In this document: piece after piece, positions 6,161 to 43,661 of the stretch
Layout: each line of letters begins with the position of its first letter
Numbering within the stretch: the stretch's first letter is position 1
Assembly (NCBI RefSeq): GCF_016888165.1
Contig: NZ_JACSWC010000393.1
Location: 1-50,030, forward strand
Direction: 5' to 3'
DNA: 50,030 bases
DNA from: Halomicronema sp. CCY15110
GTDB lineage: Bacteria; Cyanobacteriota; Cyanobacteriia; Phormidesmidales; Phormidesmidaceae
The notes under the pieces: model-generated
Databases searched by the model: none
Seen by the model: only the letters and a program-made list of their open reading frames with translations
Told to the model about the DNA's origin: nothing
Made by a program: the position numbers and the translations under genes

Positions 6161-6335
6161 CTAAAGTAGCAGGCAAGCTACCATGCTGAGGGTGATTCTG
6201 GGCTCAGTATGCAGGTGTGCATAGAAGTTCAGGGCGATCGCTCGGCTGCCCCATGCGCCTAACTGATAGTCGGGAGTACGGCTATTGGTATCGCTTAAGT
6301 TCCCCGTCTGTCAGCGTTGAAACGGTTCCAATCCC

Positions 6336-7007
6336 ATGACTTCTCTCCAACCAGTCTCGACCAAGGACGATATCTTGCAATATTTGCTCAAGGAAGGGGA
6401 AGCCAGTGCGCAAACGCTAGCCGAATCGCTCGGCGTGAGTGCACAAGCGATTCGCCGACATCTCAAGGATTTAACCGCAGAAGCCCTCATTGAGCATCGC
6501 ACCGTGCAAGCTGGGATGGGGCGACCCAATTATCTGTATCAACTGAGCCGTAAAGGGCGCGATCGCTTCCCCGCCCAATACGACGAATTTGCCATTTCCC
6601 TACTCGATACCCTGGCTGAAACCGTCGGGCATGAGCAAGTTAGCACCATCCTGCAAAAGCAGTGGGAGCGCAAAGCCATCGACTATCGCCAACAAGTCGG
6701 GGAAGGCCCGATTGAAGAGCGGGTAGAGCACCTGGTCAACTTGCGCAAAGCAGAAGGCTACATGGCCGAATGGCACCGGGTCGAGCCGGACGAAAAGCGG
6801 TGCGCCACTGGCCCCTGCTTCATGATTACCGAATACAACTGCGCCATTTCCCACATCGCCGAAAATTTCCCTAGCGTCTGCGGTCACGAACTGGAAATGT
6901 TTCAGATGGCCCTGCCGGACTGCTCTGTGCAGCGCACCCACTGGTTGGTGGAAGGCGAACACCGCTGTGGATATCTGGTGCAGGCTGAAGCGAAAGTGAT
7001 CGGGTAA
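6336..7007 (+). CDS. sufR: SufR, Fe-S-sensing repressor of the suf operon
   Basis: Winged-helix repressor that uses its own Fe-S cluster to sense cluster supply. Residues 10-50 form an HTH (DDILQYLLKEGEASAQTLAE onward). The C-terminal half has the diagnostic spacing C169-X12-C182-X13-C196-X14-C211 of SufR; further cysteines are C156 and C161. The 223-residue length is normal. It diverges from ftrC-suf across a 315-base regulatory region with three exact binding sites, consistent with repression of the suf genes and autoregulation, as known for Synechocystis SufR. Confidence 0.96.
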   Translation: MTSLQPVSTKDDILQYLLKEGEASAQTLAESLGVSAQAIRRHLKDLTAEALIEHRTVQAGMGRPNYLYQLSRKGRDRFPAQYDEFAISLLDTLAETVGHEQVSTILQKQWERKAIDYRQQVGEGPIEERVEHLVNLRKAEGYMAEWHRVEPDEKRCATGPCFMITEYNCAISHIAENFPSVCGHELEMFQMALPDCSVQRTHWLVEGEHRCGYLVQAEAKVIG

Positions 7008-34342: not shown

Positions 34343-34987
34343 ATGCTGACGATCGCCCTCCCCAAGGGAGCCCTGCTCAAAGAAAGTATTGCTCGGTTTC
34401 AAGCGATTGGCCTAGACTTTAGCGCCTTTCTCGACAAGTCCAACCGCCAGTTGCAAATCACCACGCCCAATGGCAAAGCACAAGGGCTGCTCGTGCGGGC
34501 GCAAGATGTACCCGTATATGTGGAGTATGGCCAAGCGCAACTCGGCATCGTCGGCTATGACGTACTCCGCGAAAAGCAGGCCGATGTGGCGCAGCTAGCA
34601 GATTTGGGCTTTGGACACTGCCGCATGTCGGTCGCGGTCAAAGCCACGAGTCCCTATCGTTCAGCGCTGGATTTGCCCGCCCACTGCCGGGTGGCGTCGA
34701 AGTTTGTGAACTGCGCTCGGGACTATTTCAACGGCATTGATTTGCCGGTGGATATTGTGCCGCTGTATGGCTCGGTGGAGCTGGGGCCGATCACTGGCAT
34801 GTCAGAAGCCATTGTGGATTTGGTTTCTACCGGGCGCACCCTCCAAGAAAATAACCTGGTGGAGTTGGAGGTGCTCTATCAAAGCACGGCTCGCCTCATT
34901 GCCCATCCCATCAGCTATCGGGTCAACTCCGATGGTTTGAGCGACATTATCCAGCAATTGCGATCGCCCGCCTTGGTCACGGCTTAG
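34343..34987 (+). CDS. hisG: ATP phosphoribosyltransferase, short form (HisG-S)
   Basis: First enzyme of histidine synthesis: joins ATP and PRPP. 214 residues, the short form that lacks the C-terminal regulatory domain and needs HisZ. Seen: [15 protein letters not shown], the [16 protein letters not shown] region and the PRPP loop [23 protein letters not shown]. hisZ is not in the window. It is followed by the ABC exporter after about 135 bases. Confidence 0.96.
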
Positions 34988-35123
34988 CCCCCGCCCCACC
35001 CCGGCGATCGCCCATGGGTTTTCGTCACCTGAGATACAGTGTGAAGAGGGCCAGTCCTCGCCAATGCGCTGGTCGGGCGTCGGCAATTCTGCCCCTTTAT
35101 CGGCGATCGCATTCCCCCGTTTT

Positions 35124-37039
35124 ATGACCTCAGCCACTGATACATCCAATCTTCCCACCGCCGCCGCCCCAAACAGTGACTGGCGGCTGTTTTTGCGGCT
35201 GTGGCCCTATATCCGCGCCCAGCGCCGCTACCTGTGGCTGCCGTTTGTGATGCTCGTGCCGCTATCACTGGCCAATGCCCTACAGCCGATTTTGATTGGT
35301 CAGGCTATTTCCTTGATTCGCCAAGAGCCCGTCGCCTGGTTTTTAGAAGAGCGCACCCTCCAAGGAGGGCTCAATTTACTGGTGGCGGTGCTGGTGGTAA
35401 CCGTAGCGGTGCGGCTGACCCTGGACGGTTGGCAAAGCTTTTTGGTGCAAAAAGTCGGCCAGCGCATCACGGCCAACATCCGCAACGATTTGTTTACGCA
35501 CGTAACGTCCCTGGCAGTCCGGTTCTTTGATCGCACTCCCGTCGGCAAGCTCATCACCCGCCTGACCAGTGATGTAGATGCCCTGGGCGATGTGTTTTCC
35601 ACGGGCGCTGTCGGCATTTTTAGCGACATTTTTTCCATTGGCGTGATTGCGATCGCCATGTTTTGGTTGCAGTGGCAGCTCGCGTTGATGCTCATGGGCA
35701 TGCTGATTCCCGTGACCTGGCTGATCATTTACTTTCAGCAGCAGTACCGCAAAGCCAACTACCGCGCCCGCGAAAAACTGTCCGAACTGAACGCCGCCCT
35801 GCAAGAAAACATCATGGGCATCGAAGTAGTCCAGATGTTTCGCCGCGAGCGCTTCAACTCAGAAATCTTTCGGGCCACCAATGAGCAGTATGTGCAGGCG
35901 ATCGATAAAACCATCTTTCACGACTCCGCCGTCTCTTCCACCCTGGAATGGATTGCCCTCGTGGCGATCGCGGGGGTGCTGTGGCTAGGGGGCTATCTGG
36001 TCATGCAGGAGTCGCTCACCTTTGGGGTGTTGGCCTCCTTCATTCTGTTCGCCCAGCGGCTATTTGACCCGCTGCGACAATTTGCCGATAAGTTCACCTC
36101 CATTCAGGCCGGATTTACTGCCGTTGAACGCATCACCGACCTGTTCAATGTCCCCGTCGAAATTCAAGATCCGGGGCACACACAGCTGCCTCAAATTGCT
36201 CCTGAGGCGGTGCCGGCCAATGCGCTGGTGAACGGCTCGGCCCATGCACCCGTGGCAGTGGCGATCGCGGCACAGCATGGCGATCGCGACAAGAGCGATA
36301 GCACCAAAGCGTCAGAAATCCGTTTTGAGCAGGTGCAATTTGGCTATAAGCCCGATGAGTATGTCCTCAAAAACCTGAATTTCACCATTCAACCCGGCGA
36401 AAAAGTCGCCTTGGTCGGCCCTACGGGCGCAGGCAAAAGCTCCATCATTCGCTTGCTTTGTCGACTTTATGACGTCACCCAAGGAGCCATCTTGTTGAAT
36501 GGCGTCAATATCCGCGATCTGCCCCAGGCAGAACTGCGCCGCCGCATGGCCGTGATTTTGCAAGACGGCTTTCTGTTTGCGGGCGATGTCAAAAGCAACA
36601 TCACCCTCGGCGAAGACTATCCCCTGGAGGCCGTGCAAGAAGCCGCCGCCAAAACCAACGTGGCATCCTTTATCGAACAGCTGCCCCAGGGCTACGACAC
36701 CTTGCTGCGAGAACGGGGCACCAACCTATCGGGCGGACAAAAGCAGCTCCTCGCCTTCGCCCGCGCCGCCATCCGCAACCCCGGTATTCTCATTTTGGAT
36801 GAGGCCTCTGTGCCAACCTCGATGTTGGCACAGAGGCCTTGATTCAAGATGCCCTTGAAAAGCTGCTGGAAAACCGCACCGCCATCATCATTGCCCACCG
36901 CCTCTCCACCATTCGCAATGTCGATCGCATCCTCGTGCTCAAGCAAGGCGAGTTGATTGAGCAGGGCAACCACGAGTCACTATTGGCGCAAAATGGCCTA
37001 TATGCCAGCTTGTACAAACTGCAAATGTTAGAGGGCTAA
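35124..37039 (+). pseudogene. ABC exporter (fused permease-ATPase), broken by a frameshift in the ATPase domain
   Basis: Half-transporter of the MsbA/MdlB type. The ATG at 35124 is preferred to one at 35064. Residues about 25-330 hold six membrane helices. Walker A is GPTGAGKS, the signature LSGGQKQLLAFARA and Walker B LILDEA. After DEA the frame should read into a D-loop (T/S-x-LDVGTEALIQD), but here it continues SVPTSMLAQRP and stops at 36842. The remainder (LIQDALEKLLENRTAIIIAHRLST...) is intact in another frame from 36839 to 37039. The break coincides with a perfect inverted repeat. The stop overlaps a TTG as TTGA, so a separately translated 66-residue C-terminal piece is conceivable but unproven. 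Confidence 0.85.
36802..36839 (+). repeat. Perfect 16-bp inverted repeat at the ABC frameshift
   Basis: AGGCCTCTGTGCCAAC, loop CTCGAT, GTTGGCACAGAGGCCT. Eleven bases (36807..36817) occupy the place where the family needs nine, and those eleven are the exact reverse complement of 36824..36834. This is the signature expected of a template-switch (quasi-palindrome) event or of a fold-back sequencing artefact. Confidence 0.9.
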
Positions 37040-37710: not shown

Positions 37711-39630
37711 ATGGCAACATTTGCATCGATTCAATTTAGTTCCTTATTCGGTCGCCATCTGTTCGGTCGCCATCGGCGATGGCTGGTTATCTGCTTGGGC
37801 GTGCTTAGCACAATCGCGGTGATCGCTTTTGGCAGTTGCTCAGCGTTTCAATCATCGGCTCTAGCCTCACCTCCTAACATCTTGATCGATCAGTTTGGCT
37901 ACCGTCCTGGCGATCAAAAAGTTGCCGTAATTCAGCAAGCAAATGCGACCGAAGAGGATGACCCGAACTTATATCAGCATCTAAACGATACCTTTCAGGT
38001 CATCGATGTCGAAGCACCTGACGCCCCAGTTTATACCGCCTCAGCAGAAATTTGGGCCGACGGAAAAATCCACGACCAATCTGGCGATCGCGTCGCTTGG
38101 TTTGATTTTTCGACCGTGCAAACTCCAGGGAACTATGCGATCCAAAACACTCGTACGGGGGAAACATCGGCCCAATTTGCGATCGCTCCAGACGTTTATC
38201 AAAACGTGCTGAAAACGGCTACCCGCATGTATTACTACCAGCGCAGCGGTTTTGAGAAAGCACCGCCCTACGCCGATCCACGCTGGACGGATCGGGCGGC
38301 TTTTTTAGGCCCTGGTCAAGATCCGGAAGCCCGCTTTGTGGATGATAAAGACAATGCTGCGCTCGCACGGGATATGCGTGGCGGCTGGTTTGATGCGGGC
38401 GATACCAATAAATACGTCACGTTTGCGGCTCAGCCTCTACACTTACTGCTCAGCGCTTATTCCCAAAATCCTGACCGGTGGCCGGATGACTTTAATATTC
38501 CAGAGTCCAACAATGGCATTCCCGACCTGCTGGATGAAGTGCGGTACGAGCTAGATTGGTTTCAGCGCATGCAAGACGATGACGGCGGTGTTTTTATCAA
38601 GCTAGGGACTCTAGACCACAACGCTGCCAGTACGCCCGGTCGCGATCGCCGCCCGCGTTTTTATGGCCCCAAATGTTCTTCCTCTACGATTGACTTAGCG
38701 AGTACCTTTGCCCACGCGGCAGTGGTCTTTCGCGACTTTCCTGAATTGCAATCGGTAGCGGCGACTTTAGAGCAGCGATCGCTACAAGCTTGGGATTGGT
38801 TCAACCGCCACCCGATACAGACCGAGTGTGATAGCCAGGAAATCAAAGCAGGTGATGCTGATCGCGACCCAGCGGTGCAAATGGGAGGGGCGATTTTAGC
38901 CGCCGTCTATTTATCACAGCTACGGGACGACCCGCAGTTTCACACCTACATCCGCGACCATTACTCAGAGACGCGACCCTTCGATGATTCCATGGGTGTG
39001 TTGTATGCCTCGTCAGTGGTGGATGGTCTCATGACCTATCTTCAATCGGCTAACGCCCCCGCCGATCTCAAAGCCCAGATGGAGGCTGATTTCTCGACGC
39101 TCTTTTTCGACCAGTTATCCCCCTTTTTTAACGATATTGTGAACCTCGACCCGTATCGGGCCTACATGCCCGATGGGCAATATCACTGGGGTAGCAATGC
39201 CGTCAAAAGCAACTTTGGCAATATCAACCAAGCGATAAGCGCCGCGACGAATGACACCAGTGCCGCTCAAATGTATACAAATCAGGCCCTGGGCTATTTG
39301 CATTATTTACATGGGGTCAACCCACTCGGAATCGTTTATCTCACCAACATGTACGATGTCGGGGCCGAATACTCGGCAAACGAAATGTTCCATGCCTGGC
39401 TGGGCGATGGGATTTATAAAAATGCCCAAACCTCTCGTAGTGGGCCAGCACCTGGGTATGTTACTGGTGGACCCAATAACGATTACACCGGCCCGGCTGA
39501 GGGGATTGCCGAGCGTCCCATTATGCGAGCCTACTTAGATCGGAGTGATTCGGAGCTCTACATGTGGGAAATCACGGAGCCATCGATCACTTATCAAGCA
39601 CCTTATATCAGGCTTTTATCACGCCTTTAA
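37711..39630 (+). CDS. Glycoside hydrolase family 9 (cellulase-type), exported
   Basis: 639 residues. N-terminal membrane/signal segment (about 25-52, possible cleavage after ALA), then an immunoglobulin-like cellulase N-terminal domain (about 55-160, ILIDQFGYRPGDQKVAV) and a GH9 (alpha/alpha)6 domain. The DAGD motif (228-231, GGWFDAGDTNKY) supplies the catalytic base, and E623 in WEITEPSITYQAP aligns with the catalytic acid of NE-type GH9 motifs. Members act on beta-1,4-glucans. Adjacent to a glycosyltransferase; no carbohydrate-binding module or dockerin is seen. Confidence 0.9.
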   Translation: MATFASIQFSSLFGRHLFGRHRRWLVICLGVLSTIAVIAFGSCSAFQSSALASPPNILIDQFGYRPGDQKVAVIQQANATEEDDPNLYQHLNDTFQVIDVEAPDAPVYTASAEIWADGKIHDQSGDRVAWFDFSTVQTPGNYAIQNTRTGETSAQFAIAPDVYQNVLKTATRMYYYQRSGFEKAPPYADPRWTDRAAFLGPGQDPEARFVDDKDNAALARDMRGGWFDAGDTNKYVTFAAQPLHLLLSAYSQNPDRWPDDFNIPESNNGIPDLLDEVRYELDWFQRMQDDDGGVFIKLGTLDHNAASTPGRDRRPRFYGPKCSSSTIDLASTFAHAAVVFRDFPELQSVAATLEQRSLQAWDWFNRHPIQTECDSQEIKAGDADRDPAVQMGGAILAAVYLSQLRDDPQFHTYIRDHYSETRPFDDSMGVLYASSVVDGLMTYLQSANAPADLKAQMEADFSTLFFDQLSPFFNDIVNLDPYRAYMPDGQYHWGSNAVKSNFGNINQAISAATNDTSAAQMYTNQALGYLHYLHGVNPLGIVYLTNMYDVGAEYSANEMFHAWLGDGIYKNAQTSRSGPAPGYVTGGPNNDYTGPAEGIAERPIMRAYLDRSDSELYMWEITEPSITYQAPYIRLLSRL

Positions 39631-39711: not shown

Positions 39712-40641
39712 ATGACAACCTCTATTTCAATCTGCATCGCCACCTACAAACGTCCTCAAGGGCTATTTCGACTGTTAGAAAGCATTAACACTCTAAGATT
39801 TAGCGAACTTGAAACTCCGACGATTGAAGTGGTCATTGCCGATAATGATAAAGCAGGATCAGCCAAGCAGATTTATGAATCAGTTAAGCCCACCTTTAAC
39901 TGGAAATTGGTCTATGGCATTGAGCCTCACCAGGGGGTAACGTTTGCGCGCAATCGTTCCCTTGCGTTAGCGTCCCCAGACGCTGATTTCTTCGTGTTTA
40001 TTGATGATGATGAAGTGCCTGATGCCTTATGGCTAGAGACGCTGCTAATTTGTCAAAAAGAATATGATGCTGATGTCGTAACGGGACCAATCACGCCTAA
40101 ATTTGAGGTCGCCGAAGTGCCAAGCTGGGTGCTCAAGGGCGGTTTTTTTGACCCTGTGCAACATGAAACTGGCAAGTTGATGGGAGTGGCATTTACTAAC
40201 AACACATTGGTAAAAAGCCAGCTAATACGGCAGATTGAAATTCCCTTCGATGACAAGCTGGCTTTTAAGGGGGCAGAAGATGTTGACCTATTTACCCGAC
40301 TTTTTGCTCAGGGAGCCAAAATTGTCTGGTGTAGTGAGGCAATGGTTTATGAGTTCATCCCAGAAAATCGTATGCGCGTCAAATGGCTACTAGACCGAAA
40401 TTATTACGGCTACAGTGCTCACAGTGTGACCGAAAAAAAATACTTTCCGTCTGTCTTGATTCAAGCGCAAAGAGTCCTTAAAGGTTTTTTGAATATTCTG
40501 CTGGGGCTATGTTTGCTGGCACCTGGTTTATTGCTCGGACGGCACCGGATTGCTCAATCTCTGATCTATGTTTACCGAGGATTCGGTAGTCTATCGGGCT
40601 TGGTGAATATCCGAGGAGCCTGGGGCGGCGCTCATCGTTAA
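39712..40641 (+). CDS. Family 2 glycosyltransferase
   Basis: 309 residues. GT-A fold signatures: SISICIATYKRP at the start, an acidic FVFIDDDEVPD triplet (98-100) for metal and nucleotide-sugar binding, and a catalytic-type ED in KGAEDVDLFTRL. A C-terminal hydrophobic segment (about 257-275) suggests membrane attachment. Donor and acceptor cannot be inferred. It follows the GH9 gene after 81 bases on the same strand. Confidence 0.9.
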   Translation: MTTSISICIATYKRPQGLFRLLESINTLRFSELETPTIEVVIADNDKAGSAKQIYESVKPTFNWKLVYGIEPHQGVTFARNRSLALASPDADFFVFIDDDEVPDALWLETLLICQKEYDADVVTGPITPKFEVAEVPSWVLKGGFFDPVQHETGKLMGVAFTNNTLVKSQLIRQIEIPFDDKLAFKGAEDVDLFTRLFAQGAKIVWCSEAMVYEFIPENRMRVKWLLDRNYYGYSAHSVTEKKYFPSVLIQAQRVLKGFLNILLGLCLLAPGLLLGRHRIAQSLIYVYRGFGSLSGLVNIRGAWGGAHR

Positions 40642-41498: not shown

Positions 41499-43418
41499 CT
41501 ACCTTTTCAAAAACTGTAGGGTAAATTCTGAGTCGCCCGTGGCCGTCACATCGACCAGGTAATCTCCCCCCACAGGCGCAGCATCTTCCCACAGCTCTAC
41601 CGACGAAGCCAACGGATCGCCCGTCGGCAGTTTTACCGTAAAGCTCGTGGGGGCCGTCGACCGGGCCACTCGAATTTCAATCACTTCCCCTTCGCGGAGG
41701 TTAATGACATAACGACGGATGCGCCCCGGCCCGGCGCTGTTAGCGACCAATGTGGTATTTTGGCCCGCGGGAAATCTGACCCGCTGCTCGGAAATGATTT
41801 CTGGTTCGTCTGGTGGTTCCGGCGTTTCCGGCTCGATGGGGGGCTCGGGATCGGGCGTCTCCGGCTCCGTTGGCGCTTCGGGATCTTCCCCCTCAGATAA
41901 CGAGACATTGAGGCGATAGTCGCTCTGGCCTACGCCCTCAACGGGTCGCAGTTGCACCGTATAGTCGCCGGTCAGTTCCAGCGTGCCAGTCCATCCCAAC
42001 ACTCGGCGGGCCTGACGGTCTGGCGGATTGCCATTCGGGGCAAGCACAGTCATCAGTACGCCTTCGCCCTCTAATTGGGCGAGCAGGGTTTCGCCTTCGC
42101 GCCCCGCCACGATGTAATTCACGGTTTCATTGGCTTTCAGGCTACCCTCAACGGTGGTGGATTCGCCCGCGCGAATGTCTAAATTTTGCGTGAATTCCAC
42201 GGGCTCCGTTGGCGGTTCGGGGTCGGGGTCGGGGTCGGGCGTAGTGGGCGGCGTGACGGGACGGTCTGGATCAATTTCAATTTCCGGTACATCGGGCTGG
42301 TTGGTCGGTGCCCGATTGAGGGTCGTGACCAGGCCCCATCCCCCGAGTCCCGCCACCAGGGCTAACCCTAACGCCAAGGCTCCGATCGCCAGGGGATTTT
42401 CCCAAATCGAGCCCTCATCTTCGGTCAGCACGCCAGGCGTAGAGGGTCGATAGGTTTGCGGCGATTCTGGGCCGGCAATGGTAGTGGATTGGGGCGATCG
42501 CCCCACTGCTACCGTCCGCACTTGAGAAGCTGGGGCCACCGCTGGCGTAAACGGTGCCTGGGGTCGAGCCGTAGCAAAACTACCGACCGTGCCCAGGGCC
42601 TGGGCCATTTCACTCACGGTTTGATAGCGATCGCCCGGTCGATAACTGGTCGCCTTATCCAGCACTTGGGTCAGCCCCGGACTGACATCGGCATAATCAT
42701 GCCAATACCAGGTCAGATTCACATCATCAAAAATGTCCTGGGGTTCCCGCCCACTCAACAGCACGATCGCCGTCACGGCCAAAGCATACAGGTCACTACT
42801 GGGGTACGCCCGCCCGGACTGCATTTGCTCGCTCGGCGCATAGCCCGGTTTGCCTACGGTCGTCGCGTGATGGGTTTGCCCCGACATTTGCACCCGCGTC
42901 ACCACCTCTTTCACCACGCCAAAATCGATGAGCACGGGCAGGCGGTCTTGGTTGCGCAGCAAAATATTGTCCGGACTAATATCGCGGTGAATGATGCCCT
43001 TAGCGTGAATATGGGCCAGCACCGGCAGCATTTGCTGCAGAAATTGGCGGACTTCCGCCTCAGAGAACGTCGAATTTTGCAGGCGGCGCTGATTCAGCAG
43101 CTCGCGATAGGACGATCCTTCCACGTAATCCTGCACCAAAAACAGCCGCCCTTCCACCTCAAACGTGGCGCGAAACTGCGGAATCTGGGGATGCTGAATC
43201 TGATACAGAATGGTCGCTTCCCGCTGAAATAGTTCGGCAGACTTGCTAGAGAAATGATCTTCTCCCTGCTGCGGCAGAAATTCCTTGACCGCGCAGCGCT
43301 CATTAAAGCGATTCTGGTCTTGCGCCAGATAAGTCCGTCCAAAGCCCCCCTGGCCGAGCAGTTGAACGATCTGATAGCGCGACTGAAGGACAGTGCCAAA
43401 GGGGAGTGGAGAATACAT
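41499..43418 (-). CDS. Ser/Thr protein kinase with two PPC-like sensor domains
   Basis: 639 residues from the ATG at 43418. Cytoplasmic Hanks-type kinase at 1-260: LGQGGFGRTYLA glycine loop, VKEF lysine, HRDISPDN catalytic loop (aspartate kept; ISPDN replaces LKPEN, as in several cyanobacterial kinases) and DFGVVKE. Membrane helix at about 340-362. The outside part has two beta-rich PPC-like domains (about 410-510 and 540-639) separated by Pro/Glu-rich linkers. A receptor-kinase layout; ligand and targets unknown. bioD starts two bases after its stop. Confidence 0.9.
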   Translation of the reverse strand: MYSPLPFGTVLQSRYQIVQLLGQGGFGRTYLAQDQNRFNERCAVKEFLPQQGEDHFSSKSAELFQREATILYQIQHPQIPQFRATFEVEGRLFLVQDYVEGSSYRELLNQRRLQNSTFSEAEVRQFLQQMLPVLAHIHAKGIIHRDISPDNILLRNQDRLPVLIDFGVVKEVVTRVQMSGQTHHATTVGKPGYAPSEQMQSGRAYPSSDLYALAVTAIVLLSGREPQDIFDDVNLTWYWHDYADVSPGLTQVLDKATSYRPGDRYQTVSEMAQALGTVGSFATARPQAPFTPAVAPASQVRTVAVGRSPQSTTIAGPESPQTYRPSTPGVLTEDEGSIWENPLAIGALALGLALVAGLGGWGLVTTLNRAPTNQPDVPEIEIDPDRPVTPPTTPDPDPDPEPPTEPVEFTQNLDIRAGESTTVEGSLKANETVNYIVAGREGETLLAQLEGEGVLMTVLAPNGNPPDRQARRVLGWTGTLELTGDYTVQLRPVEGVGQSDYRLNVSLSEGEDPEAPTEPETPDPEPPIEPETPEPPDEPEIISEQRVRFPAGQNTTLVANSAGPGRIRRYVINLREGEVIEIRVARSTAPTSFTVKLPTGDPLASSVELWEDAAPVGGDYLVDVTATGDSEFTLQFLKR

Positions 43419-43661
43419 AAACCAACGTCTCTGGGCAAAAACACAAGCAAGCATACCTCAATCAAGGTAGCCTGCCTTCAAGATTTATCGATTGTAGAAT
43501 GTGCCAATCCCACTTGGCAGTCTTCGCAATTTGCGAATTTTCGCTATATTAAAAGCGCGGGTATTAAGCACCAAAGGATCTGTCTTAAGGTCTTGCTTTC
43601 CCGGTCCCAATACCCAGTGAAACTTTGGATAAGAAGGGCAGGGGCATAACCCAACATCTGA

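Follow-up and report, generated by a model that had tools for sequence, protein, structure and literature searches.

An ABC exporter gene of a cyanobacterium split by an inverted repeat that appears to be copied from its own neighbour

In the window (the whole 50,030-nt stretch of Halomicronema sp. CCY15110 DNA that was analysed), a gene for a half-size ABC exporter loses its reading frame inside a perfect inverted repeat. The locus raises two questions: how the repeat and the loss of frame came about, and whether they arose in the chromosome of the cyanobacterium or in the sequencing library. The gene was read in both frames, compared with orthologous exporters of related genomes, and searched for features that would favor one origin over another.

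The exporter gene, its two frames and the inverted repeat

The reading frame from 35064 passes through the coding region for the membrane domain and the ATPase, enters a short shifted tail and ends at TGA 36840-36842, while a second frame is open from 36803 to TAA 37037-37039 and encodes the conserved C-terminal part of the protein (Table 1). The loss of frame right after Walker B, with both parts of the gene otherwise open, was thereby confirmed as an earlier note on this DNA had described it. The translation start of the exporter may be ATG 35124, since the ORF of the closest orthologue aligns from this codon. Two Pfam families were found in the N-terminal part, ABC_membrane (PF00664, 1.6e-43, 149.8 bits) and ABC_tran (PF00005, 9.8e-31, 107.6 bits), and the best solved relatives by sequence include P-glycoproteins, 5mkk and TM_0288. 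The C-terminal part alone yielded no Pfam family at E <= 0.001; the NCBIfam model TIGR02203, which describes the MsbA lipid A exporter, matched it at 36821-37036 (5.6e-28), corresponding to the end of MsbA-type exporters. With the two parts scored apart, this model gave 288.9 bits for the N-terminal and 97.8 bits for the C-terminal part against a curated cut-off of 602, and the C-terminal score falls far under the cut-off because that part is a fragment.

Table 1. Coordinates of the exporter gene and its inverted repeat in the window
Feature	Position	Strand	Basis
N-terminal part of the type IV ABC exporter (membrane domain and ATPase to Walker B)	35064..36842	+	ORF reading, Pfam
Walker A, GPTGAGKS	36417..36440	+	read from sequence
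ABC signature, LSGGQ	36726..36740	+	read from sequence
Walker B, LILDEA; final codons ahead of the changed bases	36789..36806	+	read from sequence
Left arm of the repeat (recipient arm)	36802..36817	+	repeat search
C-terminal part, read in the second frame; includes the D-loop, the switch histidine and TAA	36803..37039	+	ORF reading, NCBIfam
Five bases at the place of the Thr codon of relatives; exactly complementary to 36830-36834	36807..36811	+	comparison, 97/97 relatives
GCCAAC, ancestral Ala-Asn codons, left side of the inner stem	36812..36817	+	identical in L039, L139
Loop CTCGAT; codes Leu-Asp of the D-loop when read in the C-terminal frame	36818..36823	+	sequence reading
Right arm of the repeat (donor arm); codes conserved VGTEA and the first base of the next codon, C-terminal frame	36824..36839	+	sequence comparison
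Switch histidine codon	36896-36898	+	in frame of the C-terminal part

The features of a type IV ABC exporter are present in the gene (a transmembrane region and an ATPase with Walker A, signature and Walker B), but the D-loop and the switch histidine are out of frame with Walker B, unlike in an intact member. Judged from its sequence, the gene belongs to the type IV ABC exporter family as a broken member. Its product would be expected to lack an in-frame D-loop and switch histidine, and it is predicted to be inactive as an ATPase because these two elements are not in frame, a prediction drawn from established knowledge of ABC proteins.

Fourteen matches to the ABC_membrane family were counted in the genome, 13 of them over the cut-off, and the best own-genome DNA match to the ATPase region outside the exporter gene has 71% identity. 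A HisG-family ATP phosphoribosyltransferase (34343-34987) lies directly upstream of the exporter, and close-together matches to both were seen in the loci of several relatives. On the other side, 37711-39630 encodes a family 9 glycoside hydrolase that carries a CelD_N domain; it adjoins a family 2 glycosyltransferase (39712-40641).

The frame is shifted by +2 just past Walker B. The perfect 16-bp inverted repeat reported at this point was verified, with 16/16 positions pairing between the two arms across a 6-nt loop. Folding of the repeat as DNA gave −20.6 kcal/mol, whereas shuffled versions averaged −5.88 (z −7.43) and 0 of 200 equalled it. In a 345-kb sample of the same genome, 11 perfect repeats had arms of at least 14 and loops of at most 12, versus none in three first-order Markov simulations; six of these 11 lay outside any stop-free frame of at least 100 codons, and the other five, the exporter repeat included, lay inside one. 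When arms of at least 11 were counted, the same sample held 17 repeats, divided into nine outside such frames and eight inside, again including that of the exporter.

Comparison with relatives and the age of the change

A relative entered the count when tblastn aligned it to the N-terminal part with at least 55% identity and the alignment came to within two residues of the conserved Ala codon. One genome per species made up the compared set; the 113 rows obtained were reduced to 97 distinct segments, with the four loci that cover the window's own location excluded. From the conserved Ala codon to the Asp codon, 12 nt were present in all 97 distinct segments versus 14 nt in the window. The earlier note had suggested an alignment with orthologous exporters, and this comparison returned the in-frame version throughout: the 97 relatives read without a stop as DEATA(N/S)LD (N in 49, S in 48), with a three-base Thr codon at the changed site where the window has five bases (36807-36811). 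The count of eleven bases in place of nine given earlier is right as a difference in length; as a copied tract it is too long, since six of the eleven (GCCAAC, 36812-36817) are ancestral and five suffice.

A variant fixed among relatives was rejected, as 97/97 carry the other length and the local sequence, searched as a pattern, occurred in 1/63 genomes of the order, namely the exporter's own. Set against these sequences, the longer form reads as the derived state, absent from the relatives compared. The nearest relatives by tblastn identity were L039 (91%) and L139 (87%). Both belong to the 12/97 relatives in which the altered site is flanked by GAGGCC on the left and GCCAAC on the right. The outer stem of the repeat was found in none of the 97 relatives and a perfect inner stem in one (L075), and the two never occurred together. 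In the first 20 of the 97 relatives, ordered by identity, DNA folding of the 54-base segments gave −2.8 to −10.7 kcal/mol, compared to the −20.6 kcal/mol of the window.

The C-terminal part was examined for constraint. Against L039, its 72 codons showed 4 nonsynonymous and 28 synonymous changes (dN/dS 0.024), and the 561 N-terminal codons gave a dN/dS of 0.051. Over nine relatives, the C-terminal dN/dS was lower than the N-terminal value in six, equal in L142 (0.084) and not computable for L069; in the comparison with L075 it was higher (0.141 vs 0.109). If the C-terminal part had evolved without constraint over the full length of this genome's own branch, it should have gathered about 84 nonsynonymous changes. 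The unconstrained time amounts to at most about 11% of this branch, based on the 95% upper limit on the 4 changes seen and on a rough clock in which the own branch is assigned half of a dS of about 1. The frameshift event looks recent, because the downstream part is still constrained relative to the nearest relative.

Origin of the repeat

The changed bases 36807-36811 are the complement of 36830-36834 in the facing arm, and by this complementarity the repeat has become more perfect (16/16 pairs). The right arm would be the donor, or template, because it still encodes the conserved VGTEA in the other frame. Copying would have switched out and back, because both flanks stay collinear. Parsimony suggests that, before the event, an inner stem of 6 bp and an outer stem of 5 bp were separated by a 3/5 bulge, which is a quasipalindrome and the setting known for quasipalindrome correction; parsimony is the ground for this state because no relative shows it, and this absence weakens the reading. 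The left letters of these stems are common to 12/97 relatives and the right stem codes conserved residues, and in no relative are both stems found. Among the lineages compared, both stems seem to be present in the exporter's lineage alone, given that the outer stem is absent from the 97 relatives and the perfect inner stem is confined to L075.

A sequence of steps can be proposed. During DNA synthesis, the growing strand, with the right arm just copied, would fold back over the short imperfect inverted repeat. The nascent strand would then copy a few bases from its own right arm, displacing the original left-arm bases, and synthesis would go back to the proper template within the outer GGCC stem. 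As an outcome, three bases would become five, the repeat would become perfect, and the exporter frame would be lost right after Walker B. The best explanation, and in our view a probable one, is that the cyanobacterial chromosome recently acquired a mutation by quasipalindrome correction, a short template switch. The claim of a recent templated mutation put forward earlier is supported by the exact complementarity, by a donor arm that is conserved coding sequence, and by a downstream part without decay relative to L039.

The main rival is a local library artefact, by which strands of a latent quasipalindrome would have paired with themselves at fragmentation or end repair, a polymerase would have filled the mismatch, and an assembly that was thin at this place would have taken the artefact as the consensus, with the gene intact in the cell. 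Taken as a whole, from library to assembly, this account is rather improbable, though it deserves more weight than any other alternative. Library artefacts are described, in the part of the source available, where the arms of inverted repeats or palindromes contain mismatched or gapped bases (PMC10908179). The genome is a draft in 443 contigs, and 14 of the 45 that were sampled, wholly or in part, fall below 1,000 bases. The artefacts treated in that same part of the source are low-allele-frequency calls in soft-clipped chimeric reads (PMC10908179), whereas both flanks continue here.

Counts of perfect repeats bear on the same question. Repeats with arms of at least 12 numbered 29 here versus 21 in a similar amount of congener sequence, an excess in the direction of an artefact that was not significant (p ~0.32); a first sample had given 16 in 345 kb versus 21 in 780 kb of congeners (p ~0.11). 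For arms of at least 10, the numbers were nearly the same, 56 in 782 kb of the own genome versus 55 in 780 kb of three congeners. Thus, no significant genome-wide excess of perfect repeats was found at either arm length against congeners G001, G003 and G005, in an own-genome sample that was non-random in that some contigs were picked because earlier searches had matched them. A crude screen for split frames flagged two sites in the own genome (the exporter and L153 13492-13524) and two in congeners; the two frames at the L153 site match no Pfam family.

Most of the window aligns collinearly with a contig of a congener. Mechanical ORFs of at least 120 aa from L167-L169 that match the window numbered 48, not all of which are genes, and one of them was split, that of the exporter, so a generally poor contig is unsupported and the assembly account loses ground. 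In the reverse comparison, 9 window ORFs matched in L167, 19 in L168 and 23 in L169, with one flagged (43254-43649); this 131-aa ORF shares part of its span with an oppositely oriented protein kinase gene and is probably not a gene.

Two or more ordinary small mutations, such as an insertion and a substitution, could have completed the palindrome by accident. The Thr codon ends in T in 36/97 relatives, and by our own reading one substitution and one 2-base insertion would then be enough. Even so, at least two changes would be needed inside five bases, all of them matching the facing arm, and the probability that a random five-base filler matches the complement of 36830-36834 is about 0.001. 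We regard such a coincidence as unlikely.

It is very improbable that the gene is functional, whether by yielding a full protein through hairpin-stimulated programmed −1 frameshifting or by making the C-terminal part through restart at TTG 36839-36841, which overlaps the TGA. The two frames do overlap over 36803-36839, the C-terminal part stays conserved, and as RNA the hairpin forms a very stable fold (−38.1 kcal/mol, z −8.34). Rescue by frameshifting is nevertheless unlikely because no X_XXY_YYZ heptamer occurs in frame from 36780 to 36841 and the overlap of the frames lies inside the hairpin, not upstream of it. The overlap also has no homopolymer of four or more, the arrangement is shared by 0/97 relatives, and the conservation of the C-terminal part is equally explained by the youth of the event.

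Two further candidates were rejected. A transcription terminator is contradicted by the lack of a T run after the hairpin and by its place inside a conserved domain. The hairpin is not a mobile or repeated element, because BLAST of a 251-base query against the own genome matched it only at its own place, on both strands, with no second copy. The hairpin part of this query is also covered by two matches to paralogous ATPases (71% and 67%). When an arm was searched with up to 3 mismatches, only the two arms themselves were found in the window; a scan that allowed up to 2 mismatches, run over another 65 loci of the genome that overlap in places and add up to 749 kb, gave one single arm, at L153 13193 with 2 mismatches, which by our estimate is about the chance expectation.

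Repeats of other kinds were also observed in the genome. Three similar perfect hairpins lie at separate places (L153:13492-13524, L157:997-1029 and L159:13363-13395), made up of AGAACTCCGGCTT with its complement, plus a variant. A stricter pattern of the AGAACTCCGGCTT-type hairpin matched two sites in the own genome and none in five congeners searched; these hairpins are possibly a species-specific palindromic repeat or terminator type. At L157, two perfect inverted repeats (6186-6211 and 6586-6613) fall within one 1592-codon stop-free frame.

Relation to known systems and meaning

Mutations of this class have been known for some time. Lovett and colleagues reportedly described a quasipalindrome-associated template-switch mutation at a hotspot in thyA, and a 2003 paper by van Noort et al. 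in Trends Genet on quasipalindrome correction concerns, going by its title, the same process. In E. coli lacZ QP reporters, the portion of the source at hand describes a quasipalindrome template switch by which the nascent strand is copied before synthesis returns to the template (PMC7202029). The exporter case is like these reporters in that an imperfect repeat would have become more perfect through nascent-strand copying, with a small length change that alters the frame (PMC7202029, same portion). It is unlike them in being natural and found by comparison, not measured, and in that the frame is lost, not restored. The homogenization of inverted-repeat arms in yeast, in the section of the paper available, likewise involves template switching between short inverted repeats in coding DNA and is inferred from phylogeny (PMC8604942). 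The changes in yeast, according to the same section, are multinucleotide substitutions and amino-acid replacements (PMC8604942), whereas in the exporter the frame is shifted and the gene is broken. A review on mutation bias, in the passage accessible, lists quasipalindromes as a known bacterial mutation hotspot (PMC10710837). No earlier report of the exporter case was found in the open-licence literature on quasipalindromes with frameshift and bacterial evolution, or with cyanobacteria. The case is a new instance of a known mutation class, and the understanding of the process is unchanged.

A broader reading would be that a quasipalindrome lies latent at the D-loop of ABC exporter genes, since in the conserved DEATANLDVGTEAL a near-symmetric centre is flanked by Glu-Ala on either side. 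Codon drift that completes both stems would then make the site a mutational hotspot, and for this reason lineages might repeatedly lose the exporter by the same templated frameshift. Other broken copies were seen in 0/97 relatives, which speaks against common loss by a hotspot, and we hold this broader reading to be quite unlikely.

The preferred reading, a recent templated mutation in the chromosome, makes this locus a clean natural example of a cyanobacterial templated frameshift in which donor, recipient and relatives are all readable, a tidy example and no surprise. It also represents a type of site at which artefacts of library preparation can look like genuine mutations. The locus further illustrates how a conserved transporter could be put out of action by one round of fold-back copying.
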